Source: Thiomonas sp. X19 (GTDB lineage: Bacteria; Pseudomonadota; Gammaproteobacteria; Burkholderiales; Burkholderiaceae_C). Taken from it: a stretch of DNA of 64,000 bases. Below are positions 37,163 through 56,164 of this stretch, piece after piece (within the stretch, counting starts at the first letter, position 1; each line of letters begins with the position of its first letter). The notes under the pieces are model-generated. The model saw only the letters and a list, made by a program, of their open reading frames with translations. It made no database searches and was not told the origin of the DNA. Location of the stretch: positions 4,575,459 through 4,639,458 of the forward strand of contig NZ_LT605203.1 in assembly GCF_900089495.1 (NCBI RefSeq), given 5' to 3'. The translations under genes were made by a program, and so were the position numbers.

Positions 37163-37164
37163 AC

Positions 37165-40102: not shown

Positions 40103-41484
40103 ACAAGCGCTTGTATCCCGTCCTCGCCGCCGCCCTGGCGGCTTCGCCATTGCTGGCGTCTGCGCAGACCTATCCGGCGCCTGCGCCGACCCCCGATCCG
40201 ACAGCGCAGCAGAGCCTGAGCGCGTCCGCGAACCAGAACTCGACCAGCGCCTACAACGGCGGCATGTCCTACTACAACCAACAGGCGTACCAGGCTGCGG
40301 CCAACACCGCGCAGGACATCTCAAGTCAGGATGCGTCCAATGCGGGGAGCGGATACGACGGCATCGGCTACAGCGACGCCTGGCAGCAGGCCGCCGACCA
40401 GGCGCAGTCGGTCGCGACCGGCAACCAGACCCAGGCGGACGCCCAGATTCCGGTGCAGCAGCAAAGCGCCACGTCGCAAGGCGCGTCGTACAACGCCGAA
40501 GTCTCCGCAGCGCCTGCCGTTGCGCAGTCCAACAGCGACGCTGCGCAGTCGGCAGCATCGTCCGGCGCTGCGCAGTCCACCACCAGCATCGCGCAGAGCA
40601 CCGGAGTTCCGCAGGGCCAGCCCACGGTGACGAACCACACCGGCGAATACCTGATCGCCGGGGCCGCGACGCAGGCGGCGATGAACGGACTCTCCGTCAC
40701 CGGCTTCACCGCGAACAAGACGGCTTACCAGGACGCGCAGAATGCCGCGTCCTGCGGCAATCCCTGGTGCGCTGCGGGCTGGATGGCGGCCAATGCCGTC
40801 GAACAGAACATCGCCAACGGCGCCTATGCCGCGAACGTCGCCGCCGCACCGGTGCTGGGCACGGCGCTGAATGTCGCCGCCGCTGCCTCCGCGCTGAACA
40901 GCGCCAAGGGCACGCTACAACAGATTCAGTCCATGACCGGCGTGACGCAGGGCCAGACCGCAGGATCGACGAACACCCAGCAGGCGCTTGCGCAGACCAC
41001 GACGCAGACCGGCGTGCAACAAGGGCAGTCCGCAACTGCGGTCAGTGCGGACACGTCCTACACCAGCGCGGCAGACGCCCAGCAGAACGCCTTGGGCGCA
41101 GCGGCCCAGCAGAACCAGAACGCCGCCGTCACCGCGGCGCAGGCCGGGTTGGCCGGACTGAGCGCAGAGTATTCGCGCAACGCCGCCAACCAGATCGCCA
41201 GCTACGACAACGCCCAGGCGCAGTCCACAGGCGATCCCACCTGGACGCAGGCTGCGGGTATCGCGCAAAACGAGGTGGACCAGCAGCAAGGCATTTATGA
41301 CTACCAGCAGAACATCCAGAACCAGGCGATTGCCACCGGGAACACGACTGCGGCACAAGAGAACGCCCTGTCGCCCAGCATCGGCGGCACGCTCAACACC
41401 GCTGCGCAGAACGCCGCAGCGAATCAGTCCAGCACCACATTGCAGAACATCGGCGCGCAAACCGGCGTGCCGCAAGGCCAGTAA
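40099..41484 (+). CDS. Secreted Gln/Ala/Ser-rich repeat protein between trbE and trbJ
   Basis: The 461-aa protein has a clear signal peptide (MNKRLYPVLAAALAASPLLA, then SAQ) and a mature part rich in Gln, Ala, Ser, Thr and Asn. A short motif recurs: TGVPQGQ (about residue 172), TGVTQGQ (about 280), TGVQQGQ (about 305) and TGVPQGQ at the very C terminus. There are only two cysteines in the middle (SCGNPWC). I recognise no family. It is translationally coupled to trbE and takes the place where trbF-type genes follow in RP4. It may be a periplasmic or surface component such as an adhesin, pilus-associated protein or entry-exclusion factor; this is inference. Confidence 0.7.
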   Translation: MNKRLYPVLAAALAASPLLASAQTYPAPAPTPDPTAQQSLSASANQNSTSAYNGGMSYYNQQAYQAAANTAQDISSQDASNAGSGYDGIGYSDAWQQAADQAQSVATGNQTQADAQIPVQQQSATSQGASYNAEVSAAPAVAQSNSDAAQSAASSGAAQSTTSIAQSTGVPQGQPTVTNHTGEYLIAGAATQAAMNGLSVTGFTANKTAYQDAQNAASCGNPWCAAGWMAANAVEQNIANGAYAANVAAAPVLGTALNVAAAASALNSAKGTLQQIQSMTGVTQGQTAGSTNTQQALAQTTTQTGVQQGQSATAVSADTSYTSAADAQQNALGAAAQQNQNAAVTAAQAGLAGLSAEYSRNAANQIASYDNAQAQSTGDPTWTQAAGIAQNEVDQQQGIYDYQQNIQNQAIATGNTTAAQENALSPSIGGTLNTAAQNAAANQSSTTLQNIGAQTGVPQGQ

Positions 41485-41508
41485 CCCTCACCTCGCAGGA
41501 GAACCCTC

Positions 41509-42207
41509 ATGAACCTGAAAAAGTCCACCCTCGCCCTCGCCGCGATCGCCGCCCTCGCCAGCACGCCCGCCCATGCGACCGGCATGATTGCTGGTGCGAC
41601 CTTCCCTGAACAGATCGTGCAGGAACTGACCCTGGTCGAGCAGTACGCCACGCAGGCGCAGCAGCTACAAGCGCAGTTCCAGCAGGTCTACAACCAGGCC
41701 GTGAACATGCAGAACATCCCGGCGCAGCTCTGGCCAAACATCAGTGGCCAGTTGCAGAATCTGGTCAACCTGGTCGGCAATGCCAAAGGCTTGTCGTATG
41801 CCGCGGCGAACACCGTATCGGCGGTGCAAACCCAATTCGGCCAACCCAGTGCAGTGCTGAGCAACTACAACGCCAGCCTGCAGACATGGACGGGAAACCT
41901 GGACAGCCAGATTGCCGATGTGCTCAAGCAATATGGCCTGAATGCATCGAACTTCCAGACCACGCAATCGGCGCTCGCCAGCATCCAGGCCCAGAGCCAG
42001 TCGGCAGGCGGCCGCAAAGCCGTCATGCAGGCTGGCAATCAGATTTCGGCGTTGATGGTCAACCAGATGCAAGGCTTGCAATCCGACATTCAGGCCGGCA
42101 ACCAGGCCATGCTGAACTACATGGCGATGCAGGCGCATACGCAGGTGAACCAGTCCAACAGCGTGACGCCCATCCTGACCGCCCCCACCGGGCCCGGTGC
42201 ATTCTGA
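41509..42207 (+). CDS. trbJ: TrbJ (VirB5-like)
   Basis: The 232-aa protein has a signal peptide (MNLKKSTLALAAIAALASTP, cleaved after HA) and the TrbJ pattern: TFPEQIVQELTLVEQYATQA, IPAQLWPNI, and a glutamine-rich helical C-terminal half (MQGLQSDIQAGNQAMLNYMA). TrbJ is a periplasmic pilus-associated protein, equivalent to VirB5. It is followed closely by trbL. Confidence 0.9.
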   Translation: MNLKKSTLALAAIAALASTPAHATGMIAGATFPEQIVQELTLVEQYATQAQQLQAQFQQVYNQAVNMQNIPAQLWPNISGQLQNLVNLVGNAKGLSYAAANTVSAVQTQFGQPSAVLSNYNASLQTWTGNLDSQIADVLKQYGLNASNFQTTQSALASIQAQSQSAGGRKAVMQAGNQISALMVNQMQGLQSDIQAGNQAMLNYMAMQAHTQVNQSNSVTPILTAPTGPGAF

Positions 42208-42214
42208 AGGAACA

Positions 42215-43852
42215 ATGATGCGAACCGTCACCGCAGCAGCGTCACGCCGTGCCTTCCCAACCCGCGTGCAATGGGCCGCCACCGGGCTGATACTCCTGCT
42301 TGTGGTGGCGGCCACCGCCCACGCCGCCCCGGCGCCCACCCCGACGGGTGGCCCAGGGGGGCAGGGCTACCTCGACACCATCAGCTCGCAGTTTCAAGCC
42401 GCGACCACCGGCTGGATGACCACCGCACAGGGCTATGCCTTCAAGATTTTTACGGCGCTGGCCGCCATGGATCTGTCCTGGTGGGGCATCAAGCAGGTAC
42501 TCAAGAAGAACGATCTGGCCGATTTCATCGCCGGGGCCACCCTGAAAATTGCCTCCATCGCCTTTTTCTACACCATCGTCAAGTACGCGCCGACATGGAT
42601 GCCGCTCATCACATCGAGCTTCATGGACATGGGACAGGCCATCGGCGGTTCGAGCGCCGCAACAGCATCGCCGTCCGGTGTGATGTCGATGGCCTTCTCC
42701 GTGGTGCATCAGCTCTACGAGGTCTACGACAAGGCGCCGGGCGGTTTGTTGAACATCGGCACCAACCTGTTCCTGGCCATCATCATCGCCATCACCTCGC
42801 TGCTGGCCCTGATCGGCTTTGGCCTGGTCGCCCTGCAGCTATTGATGACGCTGATCGAGACCTATCTGGTCGGCGGCGCCGGCCTGGTGATGCTGGGCTT
42901 CACGGGCTCCAGCCTGACCAGCAGCTTCGGCGAGAAATACATCGGCTATCTGGTCAGCGTGGGCATCAAGCTGCTGATGATCTACGCCATCATCGGCCTC
43001 GGGCAGAACCTCATCAACAGCGAACTCGCCTACATCGCGCAATACACCGGAGGAAAGTCGCTGCCGCCCACCGATCTGCTGACGGTCGGCGTCAGCATGC
43101 TGATCTACGGGGTCATCGGCATGCAGGCGCCGGGCCTGGCGGGCAGCCTGATGAACGGGTCTCCGAATATGTCCCTGGGCAACGTCGCGGGCGGCGCTGC
43201 GGCGATCGCTGGCGGCATCGCCGCAGCGGGCGTGGCAGGGGCCGCAGGTTACGCCAGCGCCGCCAAAGGTCTCGACAGAATGGCAGGCCTGGTCGGGGCT
43301 GGGGCGGGTGGCGGCTCAGGCGCGGGCGGCGCGATTGCCGGCGCAGAAAAACTCGCCGCCCTCGGCCAGGCCACTGGCGCAGCGGGCAAACCCGCAGGCG
43401 ACATGATGGGTTCCATCGGCGGCGGCGGGAAAGGGGGCGGTGCTTCCGCGCCCGCACCGTCCTCCGGCACACCTGCTGGATCGCTGGGCGGCGCGGGCAG
43501 CACGGGGGCCAATACCGCCCGCATGGGCCAAGCGGCTCAAGCGATGATGGAGGGCAAGGGGATCAGCGGCCCGTCGAGCACACCTCTGCGTCCCGCCGCG
43601 CCGTCCGCACCGCCGCAACCCTCGCCCGCACCGAGCGCACCGCCGAAAGGCCCCGTCGATGCACTGGGCGCACCCTCCGGCGAGAGTGGGTCTGCCGATC
43701 TGAGCAAGGCGGCGAGCAGCTCGGATCGAGAGCCGTTCGATGTGCTGAAAGACAACCTCGGCAAGCTGGCTGGCACCAAAGATGACATCGCCCGCCACGA
43801 GGGCGGTGGTGGCAGCGGCATCCAGATCCGCCTCGGCCACGTGGAGCACTGA
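42215..43852 (+). CDS. trbL: TrbL (VirB6-like) polytopic channel protein
   Basis: The 545-aa protein has a signal-like N terminus, then at least six membrane segments (FLAIIIAITSLLALIGFGLV, LMTLIETYLVGGAGLVMLGF, YLVSVGIKLLMIYAIIGLG and others) and a long Gly/Ala/Pro-rich cytoplasmic tail. TrbL forms part of the inner-membrane conduit. Start at 42215 or the adjacent ATG at 42218. The tail's low complexity is normal for the family. Confidence 0.92.
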   Translation: MMRTVTAAASRRAFPTRVQWAATGLILLLVVAATAHAAPAPTPTGGPGGQGYLDTISSQFQAATTGWMTTAQGYAFKIFTALAAMDLSWWGIKQVLKKNDLADFIAGATLKIASIAFFYTIVKYAPTWMPLITSSFMDMGQAIGGSSAATASPSGVMSMAFSVVHQLYEVYDKAPGGLLNIGTNLFLAIIIAITSLLALIGFGLVALQLLMTLIETYLVGGAGLVMLGFTGSSLTSSFGEKYIGYLVSVGIKLLMIYAIIGLGQNLINSELAYIAQYTGGKSLPPTDLLTVGVSMLIYGVIGMQAPGLAGSLMNGSPNMSLGNVAGGAAAIAGGIAAAGVAGAAGYASAAKGLDRMAGLVGAGAGGGSGAGGAIAGAEKLAALGQATGAAGKPAGDMMGSIGGGGKGGGASAPAPSSGTPAGSLGGAGSTGANTARMGQAAQAMMEGKGISGPSSTPLRPAAPSAPPQPSPAPSAPPKGPVDALGAPSGESGSADLSKAASSSDREPFDVLKDNLGKLAGTKDDIARHEGGGGSGIQIRLGHVEH

Positions 43853-43853
43853 C

Positions 43854-44096
43854 ATGGCCGACGACAAGCACCGCCTGCGCAGGCAGGTGTCCGATGAAAT
43901 CGGTGCAGTTCTGTCCCGAGCGATTCAACGCGACCGCAGAAGCCTGGTGATCCTGCTGCTGCAGATCGTCAATGCCGTCTGGTTTGCCGTGCTGTGGGAA
44001 CACGACTTCAAGCCGCCCGCAGCAACCGTCATTTGGTCGGTTTTCTTTGCCGCCTCGATGGCCGTGTCGATCGCGATCGAGAAACACCGGCCATAA
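43854..44096 (+). CDS. Small two-span membrane protein after trbL
   Basis: An 80-aa protein starts one base after trbL. It has a charged N terminus (HRLRRQVSDEIGAVLSRAIQ) and two membrane spans (LVILLLQIVNAVWFAVLW and VIWSVFFAASMAVSIAIE). The family is unknown. By position it belongs to the trb operon, and it is the last backbone gene before cargo block D. Confidence 0.65.
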   Translation: MADDKHRLRRQVSDEIGAVLSRAIQRDRRSLVILLLQIVNAVWFAVLWEHDFKPPAATVIWSVFFAASMAVSIAIEKHRP

Positions 44097-44142
44097 CGCG
44101 CGCCCATGGCGCGTGGTTGAGCAGGGCGCTCGCCGCGCCAAT

Positions 44143-44175
44143 GGGTTGCGTTGGTGCAAAACACGGACGCGGGTT
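44143..44175 (+). repeat. 33-bp direct repeat, left copy, flanking cargo block D
   Basis: GGGTTGCGTTGGTGC, AAAACACGGACG and CGGGTT are read consecutively. The same 33 bp with two mismatches recur in the same orientation at 51583-51615, so the pair flanks the AurF/TetR cargo of about 7.4 kb. Confidence 0.85.
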
Positions 44176-44243
44176 TCCCCTTCGGGGTCGCAATCAACAA
44201 GATGGGTAACCCGATCCTCGCGTCGCTTCGTGTGGTTGTATGA

Positions 44244-45140
44244 CTACGCTGACAGGCAGGCCGTATCCAGCAGAATACCGTGCTTGACAAAGAAGTCGGC
44301 GGTGCGTTTGAACCAGAGTTGGTGAAACGCCCGCCGTGAGGGATCGTTGCGCAGTCGATTGCGCAGTGCAGCGGCATTCTGCATCCCGGACAGCGCGATC
44401 ACTTGGGCATCTGCATACACTCGTGGGTTGTACATCTGCCCGATGAAGTAGACGAACGTCTTCTCGATCGCCTTGCGCACACGATCGACGGTTGCCTGCG
44501 AGGCATCCTGTTCAAGCACCTGTGCATAGAGCCGCTGCACGATCTCGCGCCCGAACGAGATGTGCCTTGACTCGTCCAGGTGATGCTGGTGATTGATTTC
44601 GCGCACAATGGCGGGCACATTCGGGCTCTTGCTAACTTTGTAGTTGTAGAAATCGACATATTCCTCAAAGATCAGCGTGCTTGCGAACAATAAGAGGTCT
44701 CGCTCAACCAGGTTCGCTGCAGATCCAGTCGGCAGTGCGGCGGCAGGGTAGATCTTGCCGACATAGTCCAGGCAGAACTTCGCGAAGAACCACATGTGCC
44801 CGTTCTCTTCGGCAACGAAGACATGCAGGTATTCCGAGATGTCCCGATAGCGCGGCTCGTAGAACGCCATCATCAGAAAGGCCAGTGCGCCCTTGATGCC
44901 ATGGACGTTGAGACTGAAAAAGTTGATGCACTCCCAGTGGCTCAGCGAGATCAGCGCTGATTCGCCGAGCGCCTCATGGATCTGTGTGCCGAACGTGGTC
45001 AGCAGGTCCTCGTCGCACCAGGGACGGTCGTGCTCAATCTCGCTCGGCCAGACGAAGCGCGTGAACACGTCGTACTGGTTGCGCCGTGAGAGTTGCAGCA
45101 AGCGCTCAAGCAGCTTCTGCTCGGCCACGGGCCCGGTCAT
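44244..45140 (-). CDS. AurF-family diiron N-oxygenase
   Basis: The 298-aa protein has the diiron ligand pattern of AurF (PF11583): Glu70 in SHWECINFF, E-x-x-H at 112-115 (AEENGHMWFF), a Glu at 159/160 (LIFEEYVDFYN), and H-x-x-E-x-x-H ending HHLDESRH (His187, Glu190, His193). AurF-type enzymes oxidise amines to hydroxylamines or nitro groups, often on carrier-bound or free amino acids. It is the last gene of a six-gene operon and overlaps the carrier-protein ligase by 4 nt, so the likely substrate is an amino acid activated by that ligase. Substrate and product are not known. Confidence 0.88.
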   Translation of the reverse strand: MTGPVAEQKLLERLLQLSRRNQYDVFTRFVWPSEIEHDRPWCDEDLLTTFGTQIHEALGESALISLSHWECINFFSLNVHGIKGALAFLMMAFYEPRYRDISEYLHVFVAEENGHMWFFAKFCLDYVGKIYPAAALPTGSAANLVERDLLLFASTLIFEEYVDFYNYKVSKSPNVPAIVREINHQHHLDESRHISFGREIVQRLYAQVLEQDASQATVDRVRKAIEKTFVYFIGQMYNPRVYADAQVIALSGMQNAAALRNRLRNDPSRRAFHQLWFKRTADFFVKHGILLDTACLSA

Positions 45141-45997
45141 GACCGAAGCTCCTGCGCTTTTGAGATCGACTCAGGTGTCACCGGGTCGAATGACGATGGC
45201 GGGTCGGACCGCAGGAGATCGTTGAGCCGCCTGCGGACATCCTCGGCGTTGTCATACCGGTCGCGTAGCATCGAGATCCAACGCTCCAGCCCGAAAGCCA
45301 CGCAACTCGTGTGGATCGGCTCCGCGGCGATAGAGATCCCGAACCTGCGGCCGAAGTAGTTGCGGTGGTGGTTCAGCGAAGCGACGGCGTGCCCGTCGAA
45401 CACGACCTCCTGTTTGGTTGGCAGCACCTTGGACATTGTCGCGACCGAGCTCGACGTGTCAAAGAACGGATCTGATGCCGTCTCGTAGGCGAACTCGAGT
45501 TCCAGCGCGCGCATTACCTGGTCGATGACCGCGCGTCCACGGTCCACATGCTGCTTCGCATCCGCCGCAGTTCCCAGGCAGACGAACTCCTTCATAGTGA
45601 AGTTGTAGCCGCGGTAGCGGTCGAGCGGCTTGTCCTCGTGTCTAAAGCACCTGGCGATGCAGCCCACCACCTGCGGTGCGGTAAGGCTCTGCCCCTTGCG
45701 CTCCAGATAGACCTTGTAGCAGGTCGCTGGCAGCAGTGCCATGCTGGTACGCGACGGCCCATAGCGCACGTCGACGCGCCGATCGCCCGCGGCGAAAGCC
45801 GGCAGATGCTCCACGTCCAGCGCACACAGCAGACAGGTGAGATGCGGAAAGTTGCGCGCATAGCCAAGCGCATCGAACTCCTCGACACTCAGCAGGCTGT
45901 CGTACTCGACGAAGTTCTCGGGTGGCAGGCAGAACAGGTGATCAAGTGCTGCCTCGAGATCTCTGCGGACAAGATACCAGTTTGCGGTTGTCTTCAT
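45137..45997 (-). CDS. Amino acid:[carrier protein] ligase (class II aaRS-like)
   Basis: The 286-aa protein is a truncated seryl-tRNA-synthetase-like catalytic core. Motif 2 is CFRHEDKPLDRYRGYNF with MKEFVCLG, and motif 3 is TSCVAFGLERW. The Cys (RCFRHE), Glu (KEFVC) and Cys (TSCVAF) residues match the zinc ligands of amino acid:carrier protein ligases, which lack a tRNA-binding domain and load an amino acid onto a dedicated ACP. The ACP gene is in the same operon. The start ATG at 45997 lies 46 bp after the methyltransferase gene. The amino acid cannot be predicted. Confidence 0.88.
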   Translation of the reverse strand: MKTTANWYLVRRDLEAALDHLFCLPPENFVEYDSLLSVEEFDALGYARNFPHLTCLLCALDVEHLPAFAAGDRRVDVRYGPSRTSMALLPATCYKVYLERKGQSLTAPQVVGCIARCFRHEDKPLDRYRGYNFTMKEFVCLGTAADAKQHVDRGRAVIDQVMRALELEFAYETASDPFFDTSSSVATMSKVLPTKQEVVFDGHAVASLNHHRNYFGRRFGISIAAEPIHTSCVAFGLERWISMLRDRYDNAEDVRRRLNDLLRSDPPSSFDPVTPESISKAQELRS

Positions 45998-46043
45998 GGA
46001 TGAAACGCTCCTTCTGTTCGCCGAGCAGCCCGCCGGACTGCCC

Positions 46044-46868
46044 TCAGTCGATGACCGCCATCACCAGCCAGCTACGCGCCACGCCGGGCACCTCGCGCGG
46101 TTGGGTTTCGTAGGGCCAGCGCCGACCGCCGGTATCCGCGGTGCCCGGCTCGCGCAGATCGAGCACCGACCATCCCTGTTGCTTCAACCATGCCTCCGGC
46201 GCATCGGTGCCGAAGCGCCAGCCGACACCGTCCTTGCGAAGTGCGGCGAGGAAAATCTGGCTGAAGGGACTGTTCAGCAGGCTCCTGCTCGCCATGTCGA
46301 CGACGAGACGACTCCCCATCGCGCTCATCGCACGACAGGTGGAAAGAACTTCGCCTGCCTGCTCGTCCGTCAGAAAGAACAGGAGCCCCTCCGCCAGCCA
46401 CAGTGCAGGCTTTGACGGATCGAACCCGGCACCGATCAGCGGACCGCGCCAATCTCTGGCCAAGTCCGCGGCGACGTTGAGGCGCAGCGCACGGGAAGGG
46501 CCTCCAATTTGGTGCAGCCGCGCTGTCTTTTCCGCCAATAGCTCGCCATGGTCTACCTCGTAGACTTTCGTCCCTTGCGGCCAGTCCAGCCGGTAGGCCC
46601 GGGTGTCCATGCCGGCAGCCACCATCACGATCTGCCGGATCGCAGGTTCCTCCCGCAGCGCGGCAGCACAGGCATCGTCGAAGAACCGTGTCCGGATGAC
46701 GACGAATTCGCGCACGCCCCCGCCCTTGTAGCGTTGCAGCAATTCGAACCCGTCCGGCTGCGCCAACTCGCGGGCGAGATCGTCACGAAACAGCGCGTCG
46801 CTGCCCTTCTCGTTCTCCAAGGCCCGGATCGCCGCGGTCCATTGCGCGGTCAGCGATACAGTTTGCAT
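46044..46868 (-). CDS. SAM-dependent methyltransferase (LCM/PPM family)
   Basis: The 274-aa protein resembles PF04072 leucine carboxyl methyltransferase-like enzymes: VIRTRFFDDACAAAL, VMVAAGMDTRAYRLDW (SAM-binding motif I), KVYEVDHGEL, and LWLAEGLLFFLTDEQ. In polyketide and amino-acid-derived clusters such enzymes often O- or N-methylate. It overlaps the MaoC gene by 19 nt. Possible roles are carboxyl methylation of the carrier-released product or N-O methylation after AurF; the sequence does not decide. Confidence 0.88.
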   Translation of the reverse strand: MQTVSLTAQWTAAIRALENEKGSDALFRDDLARELAQPDGFELLQRYKGGGVREFVVIRTRFFDDACAAALREEPAIRQIVMVAAGMDTRAYRLDWPQGTKVYEVDHGELLAEKTARLHQIGGPSRALRLNVAADLARDWRGPLIGAGFDPSKPALWLAEGLLFFLTDEQAGEVLSTCRAMSAMGSRLVVDMASRSLLNSPFSQIFLAALRKDGVGWRFGTDAPEAWLKQQGWSVLDLREPGTADTGGRRWPYETQPREVPGVARSWLVMAVID

Positions 46869-47347
46869 GTGTGCGTCTCCTTGTCCCTATGCTGCGCCTG
46901 GGCCGCGTCGCGGCGCACGAAGCGGCTGTGCAGCACCAACGTCATCAACGGCCTGGCCTCGCCTTCCCGGGTCAGCCTGCCGGCGTTTTTGACGGTGATC
47001 AGGTCCTTGCGGAACGGGCTCTGAACCAGATCGAGGATCTCGACCTCGCCGACCAGAACGTCGTCCGGACGCACCGGAGCATGCCAGCGCAACTCGTCGA
47101 CTCCGGGCGAGCCCTCGACCCGCGCGCCCTCCAGCATCGCGCGCACGTACAGGCTCATCCAGATGGCCGCAGTGTGCCATCCGCTTGCGACGATCCCCTT
47201 GAAGAACGACTGGCTCCCCGCCTCCTGCGACAGGTGGTATGGCTGCGGGTCGTACAGGCTTGCGAAGGCCACGATCTCCTGCGTCGTCACGCGGTGGCTG
47301 CCGAGCGAGAACTTGTCGCCATGCCGGTAGTCGTCCGCGGCTTTCAT
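46850..47347 (-). CDS. MaoC-like (hot-dog fold) dehydratase
   Basis: The 165-aa protein has the MaoC signature DYRHGDKFSLGSHRVTTQEI and FASLYDPQPYHLSQEAG, where D and H are the hydratase catalytic residues, then GIVASGWHTAAIWMSLY. MaoC proteins hydrate or dehydrate enoyl-thioesters, here perhaps an ACP-bound intermediate. It overlaps the ACP gene by 4 nt. An amino acid with a beta-leaving group on the ACP would suit such a dehydration (inference). Confidence 0.88.
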   Translation of the reverse strand: MKAADDYRHGDKFSLGSHRVTTQEIVAFASLYDPQPYHLSQEAGSQSFFKGIVASGWHTAAIWMSLYVRAMLEGARVEGSPGVDELRWHAPVRPDDVLVGEVEILDLVQSPFRKDLITVKNAGRLTREGEARPLMTLVLHSRFVRRDAAQAQHRDKETHTCKLYR

Positions 47348-47604
47348 TTCGGCTCCACGAGTTCGGTGTCCGCGCCGCTGAAGTAAGCCGCGCGGATGGC
47401 GTCGATGGTGCGGAACTCGTCGATGTTCACGTTGTCCAGCTCAATCGTGCGCCCGCTGAGCTCCGCGATCAGCAGCACAAACTCGACGAACCGCAGCGAG
47501 TCGATCAGTCCGTTTTCGATGAGGTCGTCGCAGTCTGAGAAGTCGGTTCCGCCTAAGTTTTTCTCGGCGATGAAGCGCCGAACCCGGTCCATTCTGTTGC
47601 TCAT
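47344..47604 (-). CDS. Acyl carrier protein (dedicated, for amino acid loading)
   Basis: The 86-aa protein has the PP-binding motif NGLIDSLRFVEFVLLI, with the phosphopantetheine serine in DSL (about residue 36). The helical pattern around it is ACP-like, followed by an acidic helix (VNIDEFRTIDAI). It is encoded together with the aaRS-like ligase, as in systems where the ligase charges a specific carrier protein. A phosphopantetheinyl transferase is not present in the window, so the host must supply it. ATG at 47604 follows the MFS stop by 4 bp. Confidence 0.88.
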   Translation of the reverse strand: MSNRMDRVRRFIAEKNLGGTDFSDCDDLIENGLIDSLRFVEFVLLIAELSGRTIELDNVNIDEFRTIDAIRAAYFSGADTELVEPK

Positions 47605-47608
47605 ACCA

Positions 47609-48832
47609 TTACTCACTTTCCTCATTCAGGCCTTCGCCCAATCTGTGCCCTGGAACACCCTTCGAGGCCAATCCGAGCAAGGGAAGCAGTGCAGCCACTA
47701 ATAACAGTGCCGCCCCAAACGATAGAGAGTCGTTCAACGTGCCCATGTCGGCAATCGCCCCTGCAGCTACCGGCCCAATGGCCTGCCCGAGTGCAAATAC
47801 CACAGTGAAAAACGTAATGCCCTTGGCCCAGAGATCCGATGGCATGCGCTGACGCACCAGCACGGCGACCGATGATGGCACGATGAACATGCCAAGGCCG
47901 AACGCTGCAGCCGAGCAGAGAAGGCTGGCTCCCCCCCCATCCAGGATCGGAATCGACGCGCCGATCAGCGTGGCAAAGCAGCTGGCCGACTGAGTAAGCG
48001 CCGGTGGCCAATTGTTCAGTGCCACCCGCCATACGAAAGGCGAAACAGCGACGCCGCTTCCGAGGATGAGCCAGAAACTCAGGCCGAACAGCAGCGACCA
48101 ACCTTGATTGCGCATCCAAGCCAGGATGAAAGTCATATAGACGATATAGCCTGCGGCGAACAAGAGGTAGCCCAGCAACGGTGTCCGCAGGCCACTCAGT
48201 GAAAGCGCTCGGCGCGATGCCGACGGGGCGACGTCGACCGGTCTGCGGGCTTCGAGCAAGGGCCAGACCGACAGCACAGCCGCCAGTAGTCCCAGCAGCA
48301 GCCAGGCCTGCGGCCACGCAGCCACTCCCCAGAATGCCAGCAAGGGATCTACCGCGAGGCCAGACAGCGCGATGCCAATACCTGCGCCCGCGAAGTACAG
48401 TCCCATGGCCGTGCCGCTGAGATCCGGAAAGTGGCGATAGCGAACTGCCACGAGTGCGCCACCGCAGGAGAACGCCCAAGCCGCACCGATGCCTGAGAGC
48501 AGTCTGGCTGCCGTCAGCCAGACTAGGTCTGCTGACAGTGCCGTTGCTGGCAGAGACAAGACTGTGAGGTACAGGCCTACGGAGAACAACCATGTGGGTG
48601 ATCGGTATCGCAGAAGCAGATAACCGCTTGCTGCGCCAGCGAGGTATCCCAGTGCGTTGGCCGTGTTTAACCAACCGGCCTGAGCGTAGTTCCATGCCAT
48701 GGCCTGATGCATGGCTGGCAGGATCAACGCGTACGCGAAGCGCGCCAGACCGTTGCCAACGGCCACCGATAGCCCAAGACCGAAAGCGGGCCAGAGCGAG
48801 GCCGTGGCGAAAGTTGAGGACTTGGTGTTCAT
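47609..48832 (-). CDS. YbfB/YjiJ-type MFS exporter, first gene of the AurF operon
   Basis: The 407-aa 12-span MFS protein starts with ASLWPAFGLGLSVAVGNGLARFAYALILPAMHQA (first span region with the GLARFAYALI hallmark of the YbfB subgroup) and LLSGIGAAWAFSCGGALVAV. It is the first gene of the operon (minus strand) and is divergent from the GlxA-type regulator over 141 bp. The likely role is export of the AurF-pathway product. Confidence 0.88.
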   Translation of the reverse strand: MNTKSSTFATASLWPAFGLGLSVAVGNGLARFAYALILPAMHQAMAWNYAQAGWLNTANALGYLAGAASGYLLLRYRSPTWLFSVGLYLTVLSLPATALSADLVWLTAARLLSGIGAAWAFSCGGALVAVRYRHFPDLSGTAMGLYFAGAGIGIALSGLAVDPLLAFWGVAAWPQAWLLLGLLAAVLSVWPLLEARRPVDVAPSASRRALSLSGLRTPLLGYLLFAAGYIVYMTFILAWMRNQGWSLLFGLSFWLILGSGVAVSPFVWRVALNNWPPALTQSASCFATLIGASIPILDGGGASLLCSAAAFGLGMFIVPSSVAVLVRQRMPSDLWAKGITFFTVVFALGQAIGPVAAGAIADMGTLNDSLSFGAALLLVAALLPLLGLASKGVPGHRLGEGLNEESE

Positions 48833-48902
48833 GTTGTTTTCCTGGGCCGAGGCGTTTTTCTACGTCCTCATATCGGACAACTGATGTGAGGAGCTTATGT
48901 GT

Positions 48903-48931
48903 TTGCACGATGTGCGACGATTGTCTAAAAT
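48903..48931 (+). promoter_or_regulatory. Predicted sigma-70 promoter of the GlxA-type regulator
   Basis: TTGCAC (48903-48908) and TAAAAT (48926-48931) have an ideal 17-bp spacer and lie 42 bp before the ATG at 48974. The promoter of the divergent MFS operon must lie in the same 141-bp gap. Confidence 0.6.
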
Positions 48932-48973
48932 GACTCCTGCAGTTCCATTTCAGACATTCAAACAATCAGGGCG

Positions 48974-50011
48974 ATGGCAACCCAGTTCTTTATCGCAGCA
49001 ATGGATGGCGCTTTAGGTGCCAGCGTGGCTGCGACACTCGATGCCCTGAGCGTGGCCAGCGGTGGAGCGGCTTCGCTTGGTCAGGCTTCGCCGAGTTGGC
49101 GAGTAGTCGGGATGTCGAATGAAGTCCGGTTGTCCAACGGGATGAGACTTGCAGCCCAGCCGATCGACGCCGCGCGCGTCCCAGCCTCCTCCGTGATCGT
49201 GTTTCCAGGCATTGGGCTGGATCATCCAGATCTCGGTTCGGAAGGCGATATCCACGGTCGCTACGACGAGCGGAAAATCCTGCACCGCATGAGCATGCCT
49301 GATGCCGAAGCCTTTGCGCGTCTGGCGCAACGGCACCATGCGCGGGGGGGCAAAGTGGCCGCCTCCTGCTCAGGTGTGCTGCTCCCCGCTATGGCCGGCC
49401 TGCTGCAGGGCGGGGCGGCGACGACCCATTGGCGCCTGAGTGGCTTCTTCCACAAACACTTCCCACAGATTCGGCTGGATACGAAGCGCATGGTGGTTGA
49501 GTCGCATGGCATCGTGAGTGCGGGCGCTGCGATGGCACAAATGGACTTGATGCTTTACCTGATCCGCAAACAGATCGGTCGCGAACTGGCAGACCTGGTC
49601 ATGAGCTATTTGCTGATTGACACCCGCACCACGCAGGCCCGGTATCAGGTTTGGGAGCACTTGGACGTGCCAGACGACGAGACGGCGCGCAGCTTCGAGG
49701 CGCTTATCGAGGCCAGCCTGCCGGACATCTTGTCGGTGCGGCAGGCGGCTCGGCAACTTCACATGACCGAGAAGACCTTGGCGCGGCGCCTGTTCAAGGC
49801 ATCCGGTGTGACGCCCATGACGCTGATCCATTCGGTGCGCATGCGCCACGCTCGGCGCCTATTGGAACTTGACGAACTCACGCTCGACGAGGTCGCACAG
49901 CGAGTGGGCTATGCCAACGCGACCTCCTTGCGCAAGTTGACGATGCGCATGGCGCAGGTTGCGCCTGCCGCATTCAGGTCGAGCGCGACGGGCACACGCT
50001 CGCGAGGTTGA
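48974..50011 (+). CDS. GlxA-family AraC-type regulator (DJ-1/PfpI + HTH)
   Basis: The 345-aa regulator has an N-terminal DJ-1/PfpI-like amidotransferase domain (GVGAAVIVFPGI-type strand: SVIVFPGIGLDHPDLG; CSG in VAASCSGVLLPAMAGLL) and a C-terminal AraC helix-turn-helix pair (LSVRQAARQLHMTEKTLARR and LTLDEVAQRVGYANATSLRK). This is the GlxA/FtrA architecture. It is divergent from the AurF operon and is the candidate activator for it. The effector is likely an amino acid or amine related to the pathway (inference). Confidence 0.9.
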   Translation: MATQFFIAAMDGALGASVAATLDALSVASGGAASLGQASPSWRVVGMSNEVRLSNGMRLAAQPIDAARVPASSVIVFPGIGLDHPDLGSEGDIHGRYDERKILHRMSMPDAEAFARLAQRHHARGGKVAASCSGVLLPAMAGLLQGGAATTHWRLSGFFHKHFPQIRLDTKRMVVESHGIVSAGAAMAQMDLMLYLIRKQIGRELADLVMSYLLIDTRTTQARYQVWEHLDVPDDETARSFEALIEASLPDILSVRQAARQLHMTEKTLARRLFKASGVTPMTLIHSVRMRHARRLLELDELTLDEVAQRVGYANATSLRKLTMRMAQVAPAAFRSSATGTRSRG

Positions 50012-50220
50012 ATAGTTCGCTCACAAGAGGCTCGGCTGTGTGGTTCTGTCGCGTGTTTTTTAGAGGTGATGAACCCAAGAGGAAACAAGGCAAAAAAGGA
50101 ACGGACCGATGCCAAGTGTGCCCAGTAGGTGACGAAGTTCGGGCGAAGGCGTAGCGCTTGGCATAGCTGTATTCGACAGTGGTGATGTCGTCAGCGATGT
50201 TCGTCGCTTGACAACAGAGA

Positions 50221-50688
50221 TTACAAACCCAGCTCGCTCAGCTCCGGGTGATTGTCTGGTCGCCGTCCCAGCGGCCAGAAGAACTTGCGGTCGGCCTCCG
50301 CGATCGGCAGGTCGTTGATGCTGGCAAAGCGTCGCATCATGAACCCCTGCTCATTGAATTCCCAGTTCTCGTTGCCGTAGGAGCGGAACCAGTGGCCCGA
50401 GTCGTCGTGCCATTCGTAGGCGAAGCGTACCGCGATTCGGTTGCCGGTGAAGGCCCACAGTTCCTTGATCAGCCGGTATTCCAGTTCGCGCGTCCACTTG
50501 CGTTCGAGGAAACGCTGCACTTCGGCACGGCCGACCGGAAATTCGGCGCGGTTGCGCCAGCGGGTATCTTCCGTGTACACCAGTACCACGCGCGCGGGAT
50601 CGCGCGTGTTCCAGGCGTCCTCGGCCATGCGCACTTTCTGCAGGGCGGAATCTTCGGTAAAGGGGGGCAGGGGCGGCTTGGTATCCAC
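50221..50688 (-). CDS. DUF1348 (SnoaL/NTF2-like) protein
   Basis: The 155-aa protein shows the DUF1348 signature [39 protein letters not shown] and [21 protein letters not shown]1348 proteins are NTF2-like cone folds of unknown role, commonly controlled by a TetR regulator encoded next to them. Here the tetR gene is divergent and twin palindromes lie between the two. Enzymatic activity cannot be inferred. Confidence 0.9.
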
Positions 50689-50707
50689 GAGTTCTCCTTG
50701 GGTTGAT

Positions 50708-50725
50708 GTAGACAGACTTGTCTAC
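50708..50725. promoter_or_regulatory. TetR operator 1
   Basis: GTAGACA-GACT-TGTCTAC, a near-perfect palindrome (the GTAGACA half pairs with TGTCTAC), lies 20 bp upstream of the DUF1348 start and is repeated at 50746-50763. Two identical half-site pairs in one divergent gap strongly suggest binding by the adjacent TetR protein. Confidence 0.8.
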
Positions 50726-50745
50726 TCGAGTCCACTCTAGCTGAT

Positions 50746-50763
50746 GTAGACAGACCTGTCTAC
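50746..50763. promoter_or_regulatory. TetR operator 2
   Basis: GTAGACA-GACC-TGTCTAC, identical to operator 1 except at one central base. It ends 9 bp before the tetR ATG, so it should repress tetR itself (autoregulation). Confidence 0.8.
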
Positions 50764-50772
50764 AATGCCGTC

Positions 50773-51354
50773 ATGCCGTCAGACATCCATGCCTCAGAAG
50801 CACTACCCGCGCGCGACCGCATCCTGCGGACTGCGCACGACCTCTTCTACCGCGACGGTGTGCGCGCCACCGGCGTCGACCGCATCATCGCCGAATCCGG
50901 CGTAGCCAAGCTCACGTTCTATCGGCATTTCCCCAGTAAGAACGACCTGATCAAAGCCTATCTGGAGCTTCGGCACCGGCTCTGGATGGATTGGTTGAAC
51001 GGAGAACTGGAGCGCCTCCGCAGGCGCGACTGGAGCGTGGCGACGTTGCTCGTCGCCGTATTCCAGGAATGGTTCGAAAGCGAAGGTTATCGGGGCTGCG
51101 CCTTCCTGAATGCTGTTGTTGAACTGGAAGGTGTGTTGCCAGAAGTTGCAGACATCGCCAAGAGCCACAAAGACGAAATGGCTGAGACGATCTCACGCCT
51201 TCTCCCCGAATCGGAGGATCGCCGGGGACTTGCTGTGGCCATTGCTGTGGCGCTGGACGGCTCCATCCTGCGCGCCCAGATGGAGAGAGATGCAGTTTCC
51301 GCGCTCGAGGCGCTCGATAGGATTCTGAGGGCCTTGGTCAAGCAGCAGCTGTAG
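50773..51354 (+). CDS. TetR-family repressor
   Basis: The 193-aa regulator has the N-terminal TetR helix-turn-helix ARDRILRTAHDLFYRDGVRA, then GVDRIIAESGVAKLTFYRHF and PSKNDLI, and a C-terminal ligand domain with EWFESEGYRGCAFLNAV, which resembles the YbiH/NemR-like subgroup. It is divergent from DUF1348 and binds presumably the twin palindromes in the gap. The ATG at 50773 is used; an out-of-frame ATG precedes it at 50765. Confidence 0.92.
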   Translation: MPSDIHASEALPARDRILRTAHDLFYRDGVRATGVDRIIAESGVAKLTFYRHFPSKNDLIKAYLELRHRLWMDWLNGELERLRRRDWSVATLLVAVFQEWFESEGYRGCAFLNAVVELEGVLPEVADIAKSHKDEMAETISRLLPESEDRRGLAVAIAVALDGSILRAQMERDAVSALEALDRILRALVKQQL

Positions 51355-51371
51355 TCGGCCGACTACAGCTG
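51346..51371. terminator. 26-bp perfect palindrome over the tetR stop codon
   Basis: CAGCTGTAGTCGG directly followed by CCGACTACAGCTG forms a perfect 13-bp inverted repeat with no loop; the tetR TAG lies inside it. As RNA it would give a strong hairpin at the end of the transcript. No T-run follows, so it may be a terminator of rho-assisted type or a protein-binding site. Confidence 0.5.
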
Positions 51372-51582
51372 TTCGCGTAGTAGCGAGACTGCAGACAATC
51401 GCGGTTGGTTGTCTTTGTCAATGACGAGACCTTGGTGGTGACTGGTGCGACTCTTGGCAATCCGCCCTTGGCGAGGCTGCGTGAAGAACAACCCATAGCC
51501 CTTTCATGCCGATGGCTGCCATAGCCATGAGAGCGGTATCGCCACCAACGCCGCCAGCCGGACCGTCTGCACCGGGCCGTTG

Positions 51583-51615
51583 GGGTTGCGTCGGTGCAAA
51601 GCACGGACGCGGGTT
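51583..51615 (+). repeat. 33-bp direct repeat, right copy, flanking cargo block D
   Basis: Matches 44143-44175 with 2 mismatches in the same orientation. It ends 10 bp before the duplicated traF-end segment (51626-51692), so it lies exactly at the border between cargo D and the trbF module. Confidence 0.85.
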
Positions 51616-51625
51616 CCCTGACAGA

Positions 51626-51692
51626 CGCATCACCCGCTGATGCACTTGTCCCCATCCCGCAGAGTCAGGGCAGGGCGCCAATGTCTGGCGCC
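51626..51692 (+). promoter_or_regulatory. Dispersed module motif, copy 8, in duplicated segment (upstream of trbF)
   Basis: This 67-bp stretch repeats 36716-36782 with 4 mismatches. It contains the last traF codons (CGCATCACCCGCTGA), the motif TTGTCCCCATCC-CGCAGAGTCAGGGC and the hairpin GGCGCCA-ATGTC-TGGCGCC (51674-51692). The trbF ATG at 51711 follows after a GGAG site. The remnant of traF has no function here, so the segment was copied as a unit. Confidence 0.88.
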
Positions 51693-51710
51693 GTCACCCT
51701 GGAGAACGGT

Positions 51711-52361
51711 ATGGCCGAAGCCAACCCCTACCTCAACGCCCGGCGCGAATGGGATGAGCGCTATGGCGACGCGCTCGCCCGCGCAAAGACCTGGCGGCTC
51801 GCCGCCTTCGCCAGCCTAGCCGTTGCGGCGATTGCGGTCGCCGGCATCGCCTACGTCGGCGGACAAAGCAAAATCCAGCCCTTCGTCGTCGCCCTCGACA
51901 AGATGGGCAACCCGGTGGCGATGGCGCAACCCGCGGGCGGCAACGCCGTCAGCCAGCGCATCATCGAGGCGCAGGTCGCCAACTGGGTGTGGACGGCGCG
52001 CAGCGTCATCCCCGATCCCCTTGCGCAGAAAGCGCTCATCGCCAAGGTCTACGCCATGGCAGGAAGCAACGCCGGGTCTTACCTCAACACCTACTACGCG
52101 GCCCACCCGCCCTTTGGCGACTTCACAGTCAACGTCACCATCACCAGCGTCCTGCCCGTCAGCAAGGACACCTGGCAGGTCGGCTGGGATGAGCAGCGCT
52201 ACGAGGGGGGGCAGCCCAAACCGGTTGAGCACTGGCGGGCCAACATCACCACCGGCCTCGACACCAAGCTGGCCGACAACCCCCAGGTCATGCTCGACAA
52301 CCCGCTGGGTCTGTTCGTCAAGAACGTGACCTGGACGCAGATCGTCGGCGGCGCCAAGTGA
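51711..52361 (+). CDS. trbF: TrbF (VirB8 family)
   Basis: The 216-aa protein has a short cytoplasmic N terminus (NPYLNARREWDERYGDALAR), one membrane span (AAFASLAVAAIAVAGIAYV) and a periplasmic NTF2-like VirB8 domain (IQPFVVALDKMGNPVAMA, NPLGLFVKNVTWTQIVG). VirB8/TrbF is an essential inner-membrane assembly factor. It is the first gene of the trbF-G-I module, headed by the duplicated leader, and couples by a 4-nt overlap to the next gene. Confidence 0.93.
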   Translation: MAEANPYLNARREWDERYGDALARAKTWRLAAFASLAVAAIAVAGIAYVGGQSKIQPFVVALDKMGNPVAMAQPAGGNAVSQRIIEAQVANWVWTARSVIPDPLAQKALIAKVYAMAGSNAGSYLNTYYAAHPPFGDFTVNVTITSVLPVSKDTWQVGWDEQRYEGGQPKPVEHWRANITTGLDTKLADNPQVMLDNPLGLFVKNVTWTQIVGGAK

Positions 52362-52651
52362 CCGCTCTGATGGAACACCAGAAAACCGCCGCCAGGTGGA
52401 CGGGGCGTTACATCGTCTCAGCCTTCCTGGAGACGATTGGACAAGCCCTGGTTCTGTGTGTGCCATTCGTCCTGATCGCCATGCCCTTTGTGTTCGATTC
52501 AGCGGGCTACCGCTTCAACCCCTTCTTTTATGCCTTCTGGCTTGCGGCTGTCGGCCTGCCGACCTGGGCGCTCGGCGTCGTGGTGCGCCCGCGCATCCTG
52601 CGGCCAGATTTTGTCAATTCCATCATGCTCTATCAGGAGGATCAAACATGA
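52358..52651 (+). CDS. Small membrane protein between trbF and trbG
   Basis: A 97-aa protein starts at a GTG overlapping the trbF stop by 4 nt and ends overlapping the trbG ATG by 4 nt. It has two hydrophobic segments (ALVLCVPFVLIAMPFVF and FYAFWLAAVGLPTWALGVVV) and ends NSIMLYQEDQT. The family is not recognised. Tight coupling implies a structural or assembly role in the mating channel. Confidence 0.65.
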   Translation: MTALMEHQKTAARWTGRYIVSAFLETIGQALVLCVPFVLIAMPFVFDSAGYRFNPFFYAFWLAAVGLPTWALGVVVRPRILRPDFVNSIMLYQEDQT

Positions 52652-53631
52652 ATCCCACCAAATCCCTGCTCGCCCTGGCCATCCTGGCCGCAGCGGCCAG
52701 CGCCCACGCCGCGCCACCGGCAGCCTCAGCCTCCCAACCCAAGCCCGACATCAAGCCCACGACATCGATCCCACTGCAAACCAGCCATCAGATCTACGAC
52801 CTCAAGGCGCCGATCCCGCTGTCCTGGCGGGCGACCACGGCCGCAGCCCAGACCTGGCTGAATACCGGCAGCGCCCCCAGCATGGTCGGCACCAACGGCA
52901 TGGTGATGTATGCCTATGGCCAGAGCCAGCCCACCATCACCTGCGCCCCGTTGCACATCTGCGTCATCAACCTGCTGCCCGGCGAGCACATCACCAACCT
53001 GTCCATCGGCGACAGCGTGCGCTGGCTGGTGCAGACCGCCGATGCCGGAAAGACGCCGGTCGTCGTAGTCAAACCGACCGCCGCGGGCCTGACGACCAAT
53101 CTGGCCGTCACCACCGATGCGGGCCGGGTGTACTACCTGACGCTGGTCAGCGACCAGCACAACTATGTGCCGCAAATCGGCTTCTACGATCCGCAGCAGT
53201 TGGTCATCAACATGGAGCAGCAGGCCGCCCAACAGCGCGCCGCCGAAGCGGCGCAGACCGCCGCCAAGCAGCAGGCCGTCATCGCCCCGCTGGGCCACAT
53301 CGACCCCTCGACCCTGGACTTCTACTACACCTGCAAACTCGACGACGGGCACTCCGACCTGGAGAACGACGACCTGCTGCCGCTGCGCGTGTTCTCCGGC
53401 GGCGGCCACACCTATCTGCAGATGCCGGGCAAGATGCGCTACACCGATGCGCCCGCCGTGTTCAACGTCACCAGCGACACCACCGAACTGCTCAACAGTC
53501 GCCTGGTGCACGACTACTTCGTCATCGACGGCCTGCCGCAGAAGTTCAAGCTGGTCGTCGGCGTGGGTAAAGGCTCGCGCAGCGTCACCTGCCATCACCA
53601 GCAGATGAACGCCGGCTGGTGGGCCCGCTGA
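52648..53631 (+). CDS. trbG: TrbG (VirB9 family)
   Basis: The 327-aa protein has a signal peptide (MNPTKSLLALAILAAAASAH, then A) and a VirB9/TrbG C-terminal domain: LDFYYTCKLDDGHSDLENDD, RVFSGGGHTYLQMPGKM, and VHDYFVIDGLPQKFKLVVG. VirB9 forms the outer-membrane core complex with VirB10/TrbI. No trbH lipoprotein gene follows; the next gene is trbI. Confidence 0.93.
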   Translation: MNPTKSLLALAILAAAASAHAAPPAASASQPKPDIKPTTSIPLQTSHQIYDLKAPIPLSWRATTAAAQTWLNTGSAPSMVGTNGMVMYAYGQSQPTITCAPLHICVINLLPGEHITNLSIGDSVRWLVQTADAGKTPVVVVKPTAAGLTTNLAVTTDAGRVYYLTLVSDQHNYVPQIGFYDPQQLVINMEQQAAQQRAAEAAQTAAKQQAVIAPLGHIDPSTLDFYYTCKLDDGHSDLENDDLLPLRVFSGGGHTYLQMPGKMRYTDAPAVFNVTSDTTELLNSRLVHDYFVIDGLPQKFKLVVGVGKGSRSVTCHHQQMNAGWWAR

Positions 53632-53642
53632 TGGAGACGACG

Positions 53643-55025
53643 ATGAACGACTCCAAACAGGGCGACACCCCAGAACCCGACAGCAGCCTGCTCGCGCAGG
53701 ACGTGGACGGCGCCACCGCCGGGAAGAAGAAAAAAGAGAAAGGCCTGAGCATCAAGGGCACGCCGCGTGAGGGCGGCGCCCGCCTGAGCAAGAACTTCAA
53801 GAAAGTCGCCTTTGTCGCAGGAGGCGTCGTCGCTGGCGGCATGATCCTGGGCATCATGACGGCCGGGAACAAGCAGGCAGCTCCCTCCGACGGCGGCGAT
53901 TCGGGGGAACAGGTCGGCCTGACCAGCCCGGACATCGCGGCCATGCAGCGCGCGGCCCAGGCGAATGCGACACCCGCGCCCGGCGCATCGAACCCGGCGC
54001 AAGCCAAGGCCTCAGCCAGCTCGCCAGCTTCTCCCCTGCAAACCCCAGGAACAACCCTGGCCGCGACCCCCAACCCGCAGCAACTCACCCCCGCCCAGAA
54101 GTATCACCAATGGCTGGAAGAGCAGCACTACAAGAACCTGGAGGGCGCCGTGCTGGCGGCTCAGAGCGCGCACCTCGCCAAGGTCGAGCTGGCAGCGCCC
54201 AGCGCATCAAGATTGGCCGGAAGCGATACCGCCGAACAACTGCGCCGCCTCGCCCTCGGCGCAGCGCCCAAGCCGGGCGAGCAGGAACAAGCCCTGCAGA
54301 AGGCGCTCACCGCACTCCAGGGCGCGACAGGGCAGGGCGGTGCAGGCCAGCCATCGCCCCAGCAGCAGAACAAGAGCTTTCTCGATGCCGCACAGACCCC
54401 GGGGGACAACGGTTATCTGCCGGCAGCCGTGCAGCCTCCCCTGGCCCGGCATGAGCTATTCGCCGGCAGCGTGATCCCCGCCGTGATGCTGACCGGCATC
54501 GACAGCGATCTGCCCGGCACCATCAGCGCCCAGGTGCGGCAGACCGTGTACGACAGCTTGAATCCCAGTGTGGTGCTCATCCCTCAGGGCACCCGCCTGA
54601 TCGGGCAGTACAGCAGCCAGATCGCCTACGGCCAAAGCCGCGTGCTGGTGGCCTGGAGCAGGCTGATCTTCCCGACCGGCGCCACCATCGACCTGCGCGG
54701 CATGGAGGGCACCGACGGCAAGGGCCAGGCCGGATTCCACGACCAGGTGGACAACCACTACTTCCGCGTCTTCGGCAGCGCCATCCTGATGAGTCTGCTC
54801 GGCGTCGGTGCGCAGCTCAGCCAGCCGCAGAACTCAGGAGCGCTCAACACCCCGTCCACCAGCCAGCAGGCGGCAGCAGCCATGGCGCAGCAACTCAATA
54901 ACGTCGGCACCAACCTGCTCAACCGCAACCTGAACATCCAGCCCACACTCGTCATCCGCCCGGGCTATGCGTTCAACGTGCTGGTGAATCGGACGATGAT
55001 TCTGCCGGCGTATTCGAGCCAGTGA
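53643..55025 (+). CDS. trbI: TrbI (VirB10 family)
   Basis: The 460-aa protein has one membrane span (KVAFVAGGVVAGGMILGIM), a Pro/Ala-rich linker, a coiled-coil region and a C-terminal VirB10 beta-barrel domain (GSVIPAVMLTGIDSDLPG, VLIPQGTRLIGQYSSQI, VAWSRLIFPTGATIDLRGM). TrbI spans both membranes as the channel scaffold. The ATG at 53643 has GGAG 6 nt upstream and is preferred over the in-frame ATG at 53631 that overlaps the trbG stop. It is the last tra/trb gene seen. Confidence 0.92.
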   Translation: MNDSKQGDTPEPDSSLLAQDVDGATAGKKKKEKGLSIKGTPREGGARLSKNFKKVAFVAGGVVAGGMILGIMTAGNKQAAPSDGGDSGEQVGLTSPDIAAMQRAAQANATPAPGASNPAQAKASASSPASPLQTPGTTLAATPNPQQLTPAQKYHQWLEEQHYKNLEGAVLAAQSAHLAKVELAAPSASRLAGSDTAEQLRRLALGAAPKPGEQEQALQKALTALQGATGQGGAGQPSPQQQNKSFLDAAQTPGDNGYLPAAVQPPLARHELFAGSVIPAVMLTGIDSDLPGTISAQVRQTVYDSLNPSVVLIPQGTRLIGQYSSQIAYGQSRVLVAWSRLIFPTGATIDLRGMEGTDGKGQAGFHDQVDNHYFRVFGSAILMSLLGVGAQLSQPQNSGALNTPSTSQQAAAAMAQQLNNVGTNLLNRNLNIQPTLVIRPGYAFNVLVNRTMILPAYSSQ

Positions 55026-55212
55026 AGATCAGTCCCTGTGCGCAACAAGGATGACGAAGCTGTTTGGTTGGGTCGCATCGGCGCTTGTTGGACGAAAGGT
55101 CAAAGCGTGCCGATCGTTTTTTTTGGTGCCACGGTCTTGGCCCGCGCGTCTGTCCGCGTTGCTGCGTTCAGCGGGCTCCAGTACCCGCAATCCCTGGCGT
55201 GTCGGTTTGCCG

Positions 55213-56034: not shown

Positions 56035-56084
56035 TCCATTCCCCTTCTTCTGCTACGGCCAACATGACGTCAATCGCTTGACTA

Positions 56085-56098
56085 ACTACCAGAGTAGT
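56085..56098. promoter_or_regulatory. Putative TrmB operator 1
   Basis: ACTAC-CAGA-GTAGT palindrome, in the gap between the divergent TrmB and RidA genes. A TTGACT -35-like hexamer (56078-56083) is just upstream, so binding would occlude a rightward promoter. Confidence 0.5.
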
Positions 56099-56116
56099 AT
56101 AAGAATGCTTTTGAGT

Positions 56117-56133: not shown

Positions 56134-56164
56134 CACTTAACATCAAATGAAAGGATGGCATCAG

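Follow-up and report, generated by a model that had tools for sequence, protein, structure and literature searches.

He and Ryan reportedly described in 2021 a route (enteromycin carboxamide) in which glycine held on an acyl carrier protein (ACP) is converted to a nitronate and then either O-methylated or denitrified. In the 64,000-nt stretch of Thiomonas sp. X19 analysed here (contig NZ_LT605203.1, positions 4,575,459 to 4,639,458; hereafter the window), we found one minus-strand operon of six open reading frames (ORFs) at 44244-48832. It encodes an MFS transporter, an ACP, a MaoC-like protein, an LCM-family methyltransferase, a ligase resembling aminoacyl-tRNA synthetases (aaRS) and an AurF-type oxygenase. 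On balance, and with modest confidence, we read it as a mobile cassette, free of assembly-line genes, that would make a glycine-derived O-methyl nitronate. Carrier-bound glycine and a diiron oxygenase, followed by a methyltransferase or by denitrification, are what it would have in common with glycine-nitronate cassettes, as these are outlined in PMC9967187. The underlying chemistry is probably already known, and this published precedent weakens the statement of an earlier note on this DNA, which knew of no described cluster with exactly this gene set. In the literature on this ligase type and on nitronate chemistry, no description of the gene set was recognised, a weak negative since most subscription full texts lay outside the coverage. 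We provisionally treat the operon as a variant of glycine-nitronate chemistry, set apart by its aaRS-like loading enzyme, its lack of an assembly line, a MaoC partner and its location on a conjugative element.

Other described clusters differ more clearly in gene content. The proposed akazaoxime cluster loads glycine through the adenylation and peptidyl carrier protein unit (A-PCP) of a nonribosomal peptide synthetase (NRPS), followed by polyketide synthase (PKS)/NRPS steps, whereas the operon here has an aaRS-like ligase and a free ACP, together with MaoC and MFS genes, and no assembly-line gene. For that last reason a complete NRPS-type enteromycin cluster was rejected. The Ham/Pvf/Mgo diazeniumdiolate clusters also employ an AurF-type enzyme, and their pathway likewise acts on an amino acid bound to a carrier, but their NRPS with a reductase domain and their other tailoring genes have no counterpart in this operon, and a Ham/Pvf-type cluster was rejected because no NRPS-reductase is among the six genes. 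It is very unlikely that the ligase and ACP replace the NRPS in a Ham/Pvf/Mgo-type pathway to a diazeniumdiolate or pyrazine-N-oxide signal. The AurF homologue HamC works in a pathway starting from NRPS-bound valine (PMC5878181), but the six genes include no adenylation-thiolation-reductase NRPS and no HamA-like or HamE-like gene.

Four of the five junctions in the operon are overlaps (17, 4, 19 and 4 nt), and the LCM-aaRS spacing is 46 nt, as calculated from the ORF coordinates. Five of the six proteins scored above the curated Pfam cut-offs, the ACP being the exception. The six genes are as follows.

44244-45140, minus strand: AurF-type diiron N-oxygenase (PF11583)
45137-45997, minus strand: class II aaRS-like amino acid:[carrier protein] ligase (tRNA-synt_2b, Bll0957 (3mey) profile, predicted fold)
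46044-46868, minus strand: LCM-family (TIGR00027) S-adenosylmethionine (SAM)-dependent methyltransferase, proposed nitronate O-methyltransferase (PF04072, TIGR00027)
46850-47347, minus strand: MaoC-like hotdog protein with a D/H dyad (PF01575, aligned motif)
47344-47625, minus strand: freestanding carrier protein with a DSL phosphopantetheine motif (weak ACP/PCP matches, motif)
47609-48832, minus strand: MFS_4 (YbfB-type) transporter, proposed exporter (PF06779)

The ligase (286 aa) matched tRNA-synt_2b with 30.9 bits (cut-off 29.3), and its profile match to the glycine:[carrier protein] ligase Bll0957 (3mey) had an E value of 1.8e-35, covering positions 23-249 of 268. Its predicted model (predicted local distance difference test, pLDDT, 91) gave 3pzc and 4h2s as the best fold matches, with template modelling (TM) scores of 0.74-0.75 at 27% identity over most of the model, and seryl-tRNA synthetases were the closest folds after Bll0957. 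Profile and fold matches together indicate a class II catalytic core without a tRNA-binding domain. Residues C93, E137 and C232 are identical in 15 of 15 aligned rows and align to a Cys/Glu/Cys set that we take to be the zinc ligands of Bll0957. The fold, motifs and aligned zinc ligands are thus common to the operon ligase and Bll0957 (3mey, 4h2s), but the operon ligase is only 27% identical to it and scored 110 bits against the PRK07080 amino acid--[ACP] ligase model, below the equivalog cut-off of 357, which makes it a relative and not that equivalog. Judged from this kinship, glycine is the most likely amino acid to be loaded.

The carrier protein matched no Pfam model and was called from weak matches, namely 17 bits to an NCBIfam model and E 0.0016 to a peptidyl carrier protein of solved structure. 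Its D-S-[LM] motif was found in 12 of 12 readable rows. In the alignment behind the ACP and MaoC motifs, the L020 ACP, L026 ACP and L026 AurF had wrong ORF extensions, and the counts leave out the L026 rows. The operon has a carrier protein, a diiron oxygenase and a methyltransferase side by side, the carrier-protein call being the weakest of the three.

The AurF-type protein scored 93.3 bits with PF11583 (cut-off 29.6), and seven metal ligands including the extra His, assigned by spacing from the Dob3 list, are kept in 13 of 13 rows. A fold search with this protein recovered CmlI and AurF, while an AurF profile run against the sequences of solved structures retrieved no AurF entry at E 0.1 but two proteins of R2 type. 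The fold and the metal-ligand spacing are those of the AurF/CmlI arylamine N-oxygenases; the identity is 11-13%, however, and the partner genes here point to an aliphatic, carrier-bound amine. The methyltransferase matched PF04072 (LCM) with 160 bits (cut-off 22.3) and TIGR00027 with 209 bits, the MaoC protein matched PF01575 with 55 bits (cut-off 27) and carries [YF]DPQx[YF]H in 7 of 7 aligned rows, and the MFS protein matched MFS_4 (PF06779) with 184 bits (cut-off 26.3).

Relatives were drawn from the best 120 ligase and the best 120 AurF matches, and ten loci from named genomes were compared. Checked for the six genes together, as the earlier note had proposed, these ten loci showed the full set in Salinarimonas rosea (L014) and Spongiihabitans (L020), and five of the genes with a short MFS match in Ramlibacter (L013). 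The S. ramus genes are divided between two contigs, one with the AurF-ligase pair and one with the MFS-ACP-MaoC-methyltransferase group, a split that argues for shared function. The MFS protein is 62-63% identical to those adjoining the same genes in two Salinarimonas. Chance adjacency was rejected, since the set is seen again in both proteobacteria and actinobacteria.

Another gene content was seen in Agrobacterium vitis F2/5, Variovorax and four loci of Achromobacter, where an ACP, AurF and ligase are accompanied by a nitronate monooxygenase, a phosphopantetheinyl transferase and a protein that is FlK-type or FlK-like. In Tistrella, genes for AurF, ACP, ligase and monooxygenase are present, and the FlK-type gene lies at a greater distance. 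This FlK-type (fluoroacetyl-CoA thioesterase) gene was confirmed by Pfam in all three monooxygenase loci tested (A. vitis, Tistrella and one Achromobacter) and suits a small activated two-carbon acyl group.

Actinobacteria provided the larger sample. Of 394 genomes sampled from the class, 2 gave a methyltransferase match at E 1e-60, both times adjoining ligase, ACP and AurF genes. At E 1e-55 the methyltransferase was found in 27 of 239 genomes of one family, probably Streptomycetaceae, at 30 loci. Methyltransferase, ACP, ligase and AurF occur all together in 27 of these. Of the other three, one lies on a 3.5-kb contig that carries methyltransferase and ACP genes, and at the two lowest-scoring loci the methyltransferase stands by itself. 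MaoC is present in 13 of the 27 full loci and missing from 14. The 30 stretches gave no match to nitronate monooxygenase and none to one NRPS adenylation motif, a single pattern that can miss some adenylation domains. An actinobacterial ligase query matched 65 of the same 239 genomes, and 20 ligase loci were sampled down the match ranking from outside the methyltransferase set; they are part of all such places, and their lack of the methyltransferase is a consequence of this choice. AurF is present in 17 of the 20, and nitronate monooxygenase in 9 of those 17.

Side observations were made at some of the actinobacterial clusters. Cluster L063 adjoins genes for a SAM synthetase, a B12-dependent methionine synthase and a second methyltransferase, neighbours hinting at a heavy methyl demand. 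Clusters L062, L095 and L104 adjoin β-ketoacyl synthase III (KAS III)-like, condensation-domain, ATP-grasp or pyridoxal phosphate (PLP) decarboxylase genes. At L101 the AurF match (11811-12604) falls into three pieces, and the gene may be frameshifted or misassembled.

Nitronate monooxygenase was thus found in 0 of 27 methyltransferase loci and 9 of 20 sampled ligase loci (Fisher p 1.2e-4, with rows that are related to one another). Neither the window nor any of 36 methyltransferase-type stretches matched it; these stretches include one Ramlibacter place twice and three without the full gene set. Conversely, neither LCM nor MaoC matched in 16 monooxygenase loci, and no locus searched had the LCM methyltransferase and the nitronate monooxygenase together. 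On the ligase tree (48 rows) both labels are clustered without forming single groups, and well-supported branches force at least three monooxygenase and at least two methyltransferase changes; on the AurF tree (42 rows) they force at least two changes for each label. The ligase tree was built after removal of L024 and of twelve near-identical rows, L022 and L029 are in neither tree, and L015 was labelled methyltransferase-type from a gene on another contig of its genome. One or the other enzyme on a recurring ligase/ACP/AurF core is a pattern to be expected if both act on one intermediate from a common loading and N-oxidation core. The two branches named in the title of the work by He and Ryan match these two gene-content types.

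The genes, the operon, the conserved residues, the recurring core and the either-or enzyme can be read from the sequence itself, and from them we infer a substrate, an order of steps and a product. The ligase would adenylate an amino acid, most likely glycine, and load it onto holo-ACP, and the AurF-type diiron enzyme would oxidise the amine on the carrier to the nitro/nitronate level. N-oxygenation on the carrier is the reading that fits best because the ligase is kin to carrier-protein ligases, its aligned zinc ligands are kept, and ACP and AurF genes adjoin it; with AurF in 27 of 30 and 17 of 20 loci, the loading and N-oxygenation predicted in the earlier note are supported. The LCM methyltransferase would then methylate the nitronate oxygen, its likelier role because related loci have a nitronate monooxygenase in its stead. 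The MaoC-like hotdog protein would putatively release or modify the acyl-ACP, and the MFS protein may export the product. That the cassette instead supplies an activated starter unit for enzymes encoded elsewhere in the host, and not a finished, exported molecule, we regard as rather improbable: some actinobacterial cores do adjoin KAS III-like, condensation-domain, second-ACP or ATP-grasp genes, but the sets of the window, S. rosea and Spongiihabitans have their own MFS gene beside the core, within wider surroundings that are partly annotated.

In the scheme of the earlier note, dehydration and methylation followed N-oxygenation. In our reading the methylation is more likely on the oxygen of a carrier-bound nitronate, and a plain MaoC dehydration would have no obvious substrate if glycine is loaded. 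For the signalling or toxin role that the note thought possible, the analysis gave evidence neither for nor against. Closest to that scheme is a pathway in which a β-hydroxy amino acid such as serine is loaded and N-oxygenated, MaoC dehydrates the carrier-bound product and LCM methylates a carboxylate or oxime. The D/H dyad of MaoC in 7 of 7 aligned rows would fit this pathway, as would the seryl-tRNA synthetases ranking next to Bll0957 in fold and an LCM family named for carboxyl methylation. We nevertheless consider it unlikely, since the closest structure is a glycine ligase, a nitronate monooxygenase replaces the methyltransferase on related cores, and MaoC is missing from 14 of 27 actinobacterial methyltransferase loci.

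Several observations count against the preferred glycine-nitronate pathway. A two-carbon glycine unit offers MaoC no clear substrate, yet MaoC is present in all five proteobacterial methyltransferase clusters seen. The glycine specificity derives from an identity of 27%, and kinship of the LCM enzyme with the enteromycin methyltransferase is conjectural. In Achromobacter, Variovorax and Tistrella, the monooxygenase loci have an O-methyltransferase of another kind. Among the 20 sampled ligase loci, eight have AurF but neither branch enzyme and three lack AurF. The label changes on the trees may be gains or losses and need not reflect exchanges, and some of the long branches, including L027, are unsure. 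Lastly, 10 of 11 distant ligase relatives have no AurF within the 3-3.7 kb examined, nor have the ligase relatives L022 and L029 in the stretches examined, so the ligase alone does not imply N-oxygenation. L029 is on Streptomyces clavuligerus pSCL4, where an ACP-like gene and a phosphopantetheinyl transferase accompany the ligase relative and no AurF match was found in the stretch.

The operon occupies a cargo site between the VirB6/TrbL and VirB8 genes, flanked by VirB4, TrbL/VirB6, VirB8, VirB9/CagX and VirB10/TrbI genes. The window's contig is nearly the entire host genome. In a same-genus genome, a sister element (L064) is 88-98% identical on both flanks (window 37000-44095 and 51568-57000) and has 1.56 kb at the cargo site against the 7.47-kb cargo here (window 44096-51567). 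None of the operon genes matched across the 19-kb sister stretch, whose cargo-site ORFs resemble, as judged by eye, BrnT/BrnA and HigBA-type toxin-antitoxin genes. A search for the AurF-type protein at E 1e-50 was negative in all 397 other genomes sampled from the phylum, and a family profile at 1e-60 had matches in 2 of 368 other genomes of the class. A close ligase relative was found in 0 of 198 other relatives searched, and distant ones (30-37% identity) in 11. Horizontal acquisition of the operon is the natural inference, because the sister element lacks it and close relatives are rare among relatives, class and phylum. Two further claims of the earlier note held: the type IV secretion system (T4SS) genes on both flanks and the sister element place the operon on a conjugative element, and the ORFs, with families assigned by Pfam and NCBIfam, form a tight six-gene operon divergent from a GlxA-type regulator. 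The features around the operon are as follows.

48833-48973, no strand: divergent promoter region containing a dyad (48865-48892) and a promoter-like site (48902-48931), both consensus matches only
48974-50011, plus strand: DJ-1/AraC (FtrA/GlxA-like) regulator, divergent from the operon (HTH_18, PRK09393)
44143-44178, plus strand: left copy of an imperfect 36-bp direct repeat at the cargo edge (91.7% to 51583-51618)
51583-51618, plus strand: right copy of the imperfect 36-bp direct repeat at the cargo edge (pairs with 44143-44178)

The regulator scored 63.7 bits with HTH_18 and 135 bits with PRK09393 (FtrA), below the cut-off of 425, and had no match in the Ramlibacter, S. rosea and Spongiihabitans stretches examined. 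Both 36-bp repeat copies align to a single place adjoining VirB8 in L064. A scan for such signals found 3 promoter-like sites where 1.2 are expected and 4 terminator-like sites where 4.5 are expected, and no claim is built on either. The window contains no tRNA. A short repeated element was observed at 36716-36782, 51626-51692, 21644-21700, 29438-29479, 26885-26917, 9347-9378 and 9728-9755, and a HipA-like gene and an ArdC-type antirestriction gene lie near the T4SS genes (34682-36082 and 29667-32336). VirB8 matched at seven places in the host genome, three with identical scores and one short and weak, which suggests several T4SS elements. A DUF1348/NTF2-like gene and a divergent TetR gene at 50221-51354 were rejected as pathway genes, since matches spanning both were found on Ideonella, Methylocystis and Comamonas plasmids.

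A stand-alone pathway borne by conjugation, with an aaRS relative replacing an NRPS, a small diffusible O-methyl nitronate as product and a MaoC-family enzyme acting on a carrier-bound nitronate, is a tentative and in this full form doubtful proposal. An O-methyl nitronate is a reactive 1,3-dipole, and we know of no precedent for a MaoC-family enzyme acting on a carrier-bound nitronate. If the proposal is true, tRNA-synthetase-like carrier loading would be joined to amino acid N-oxidation in one minimal, transferable operon. The either-or enzyme on a recurring core leads to a more general prediction, that one intermediate would have two fates which may be read from gene content.

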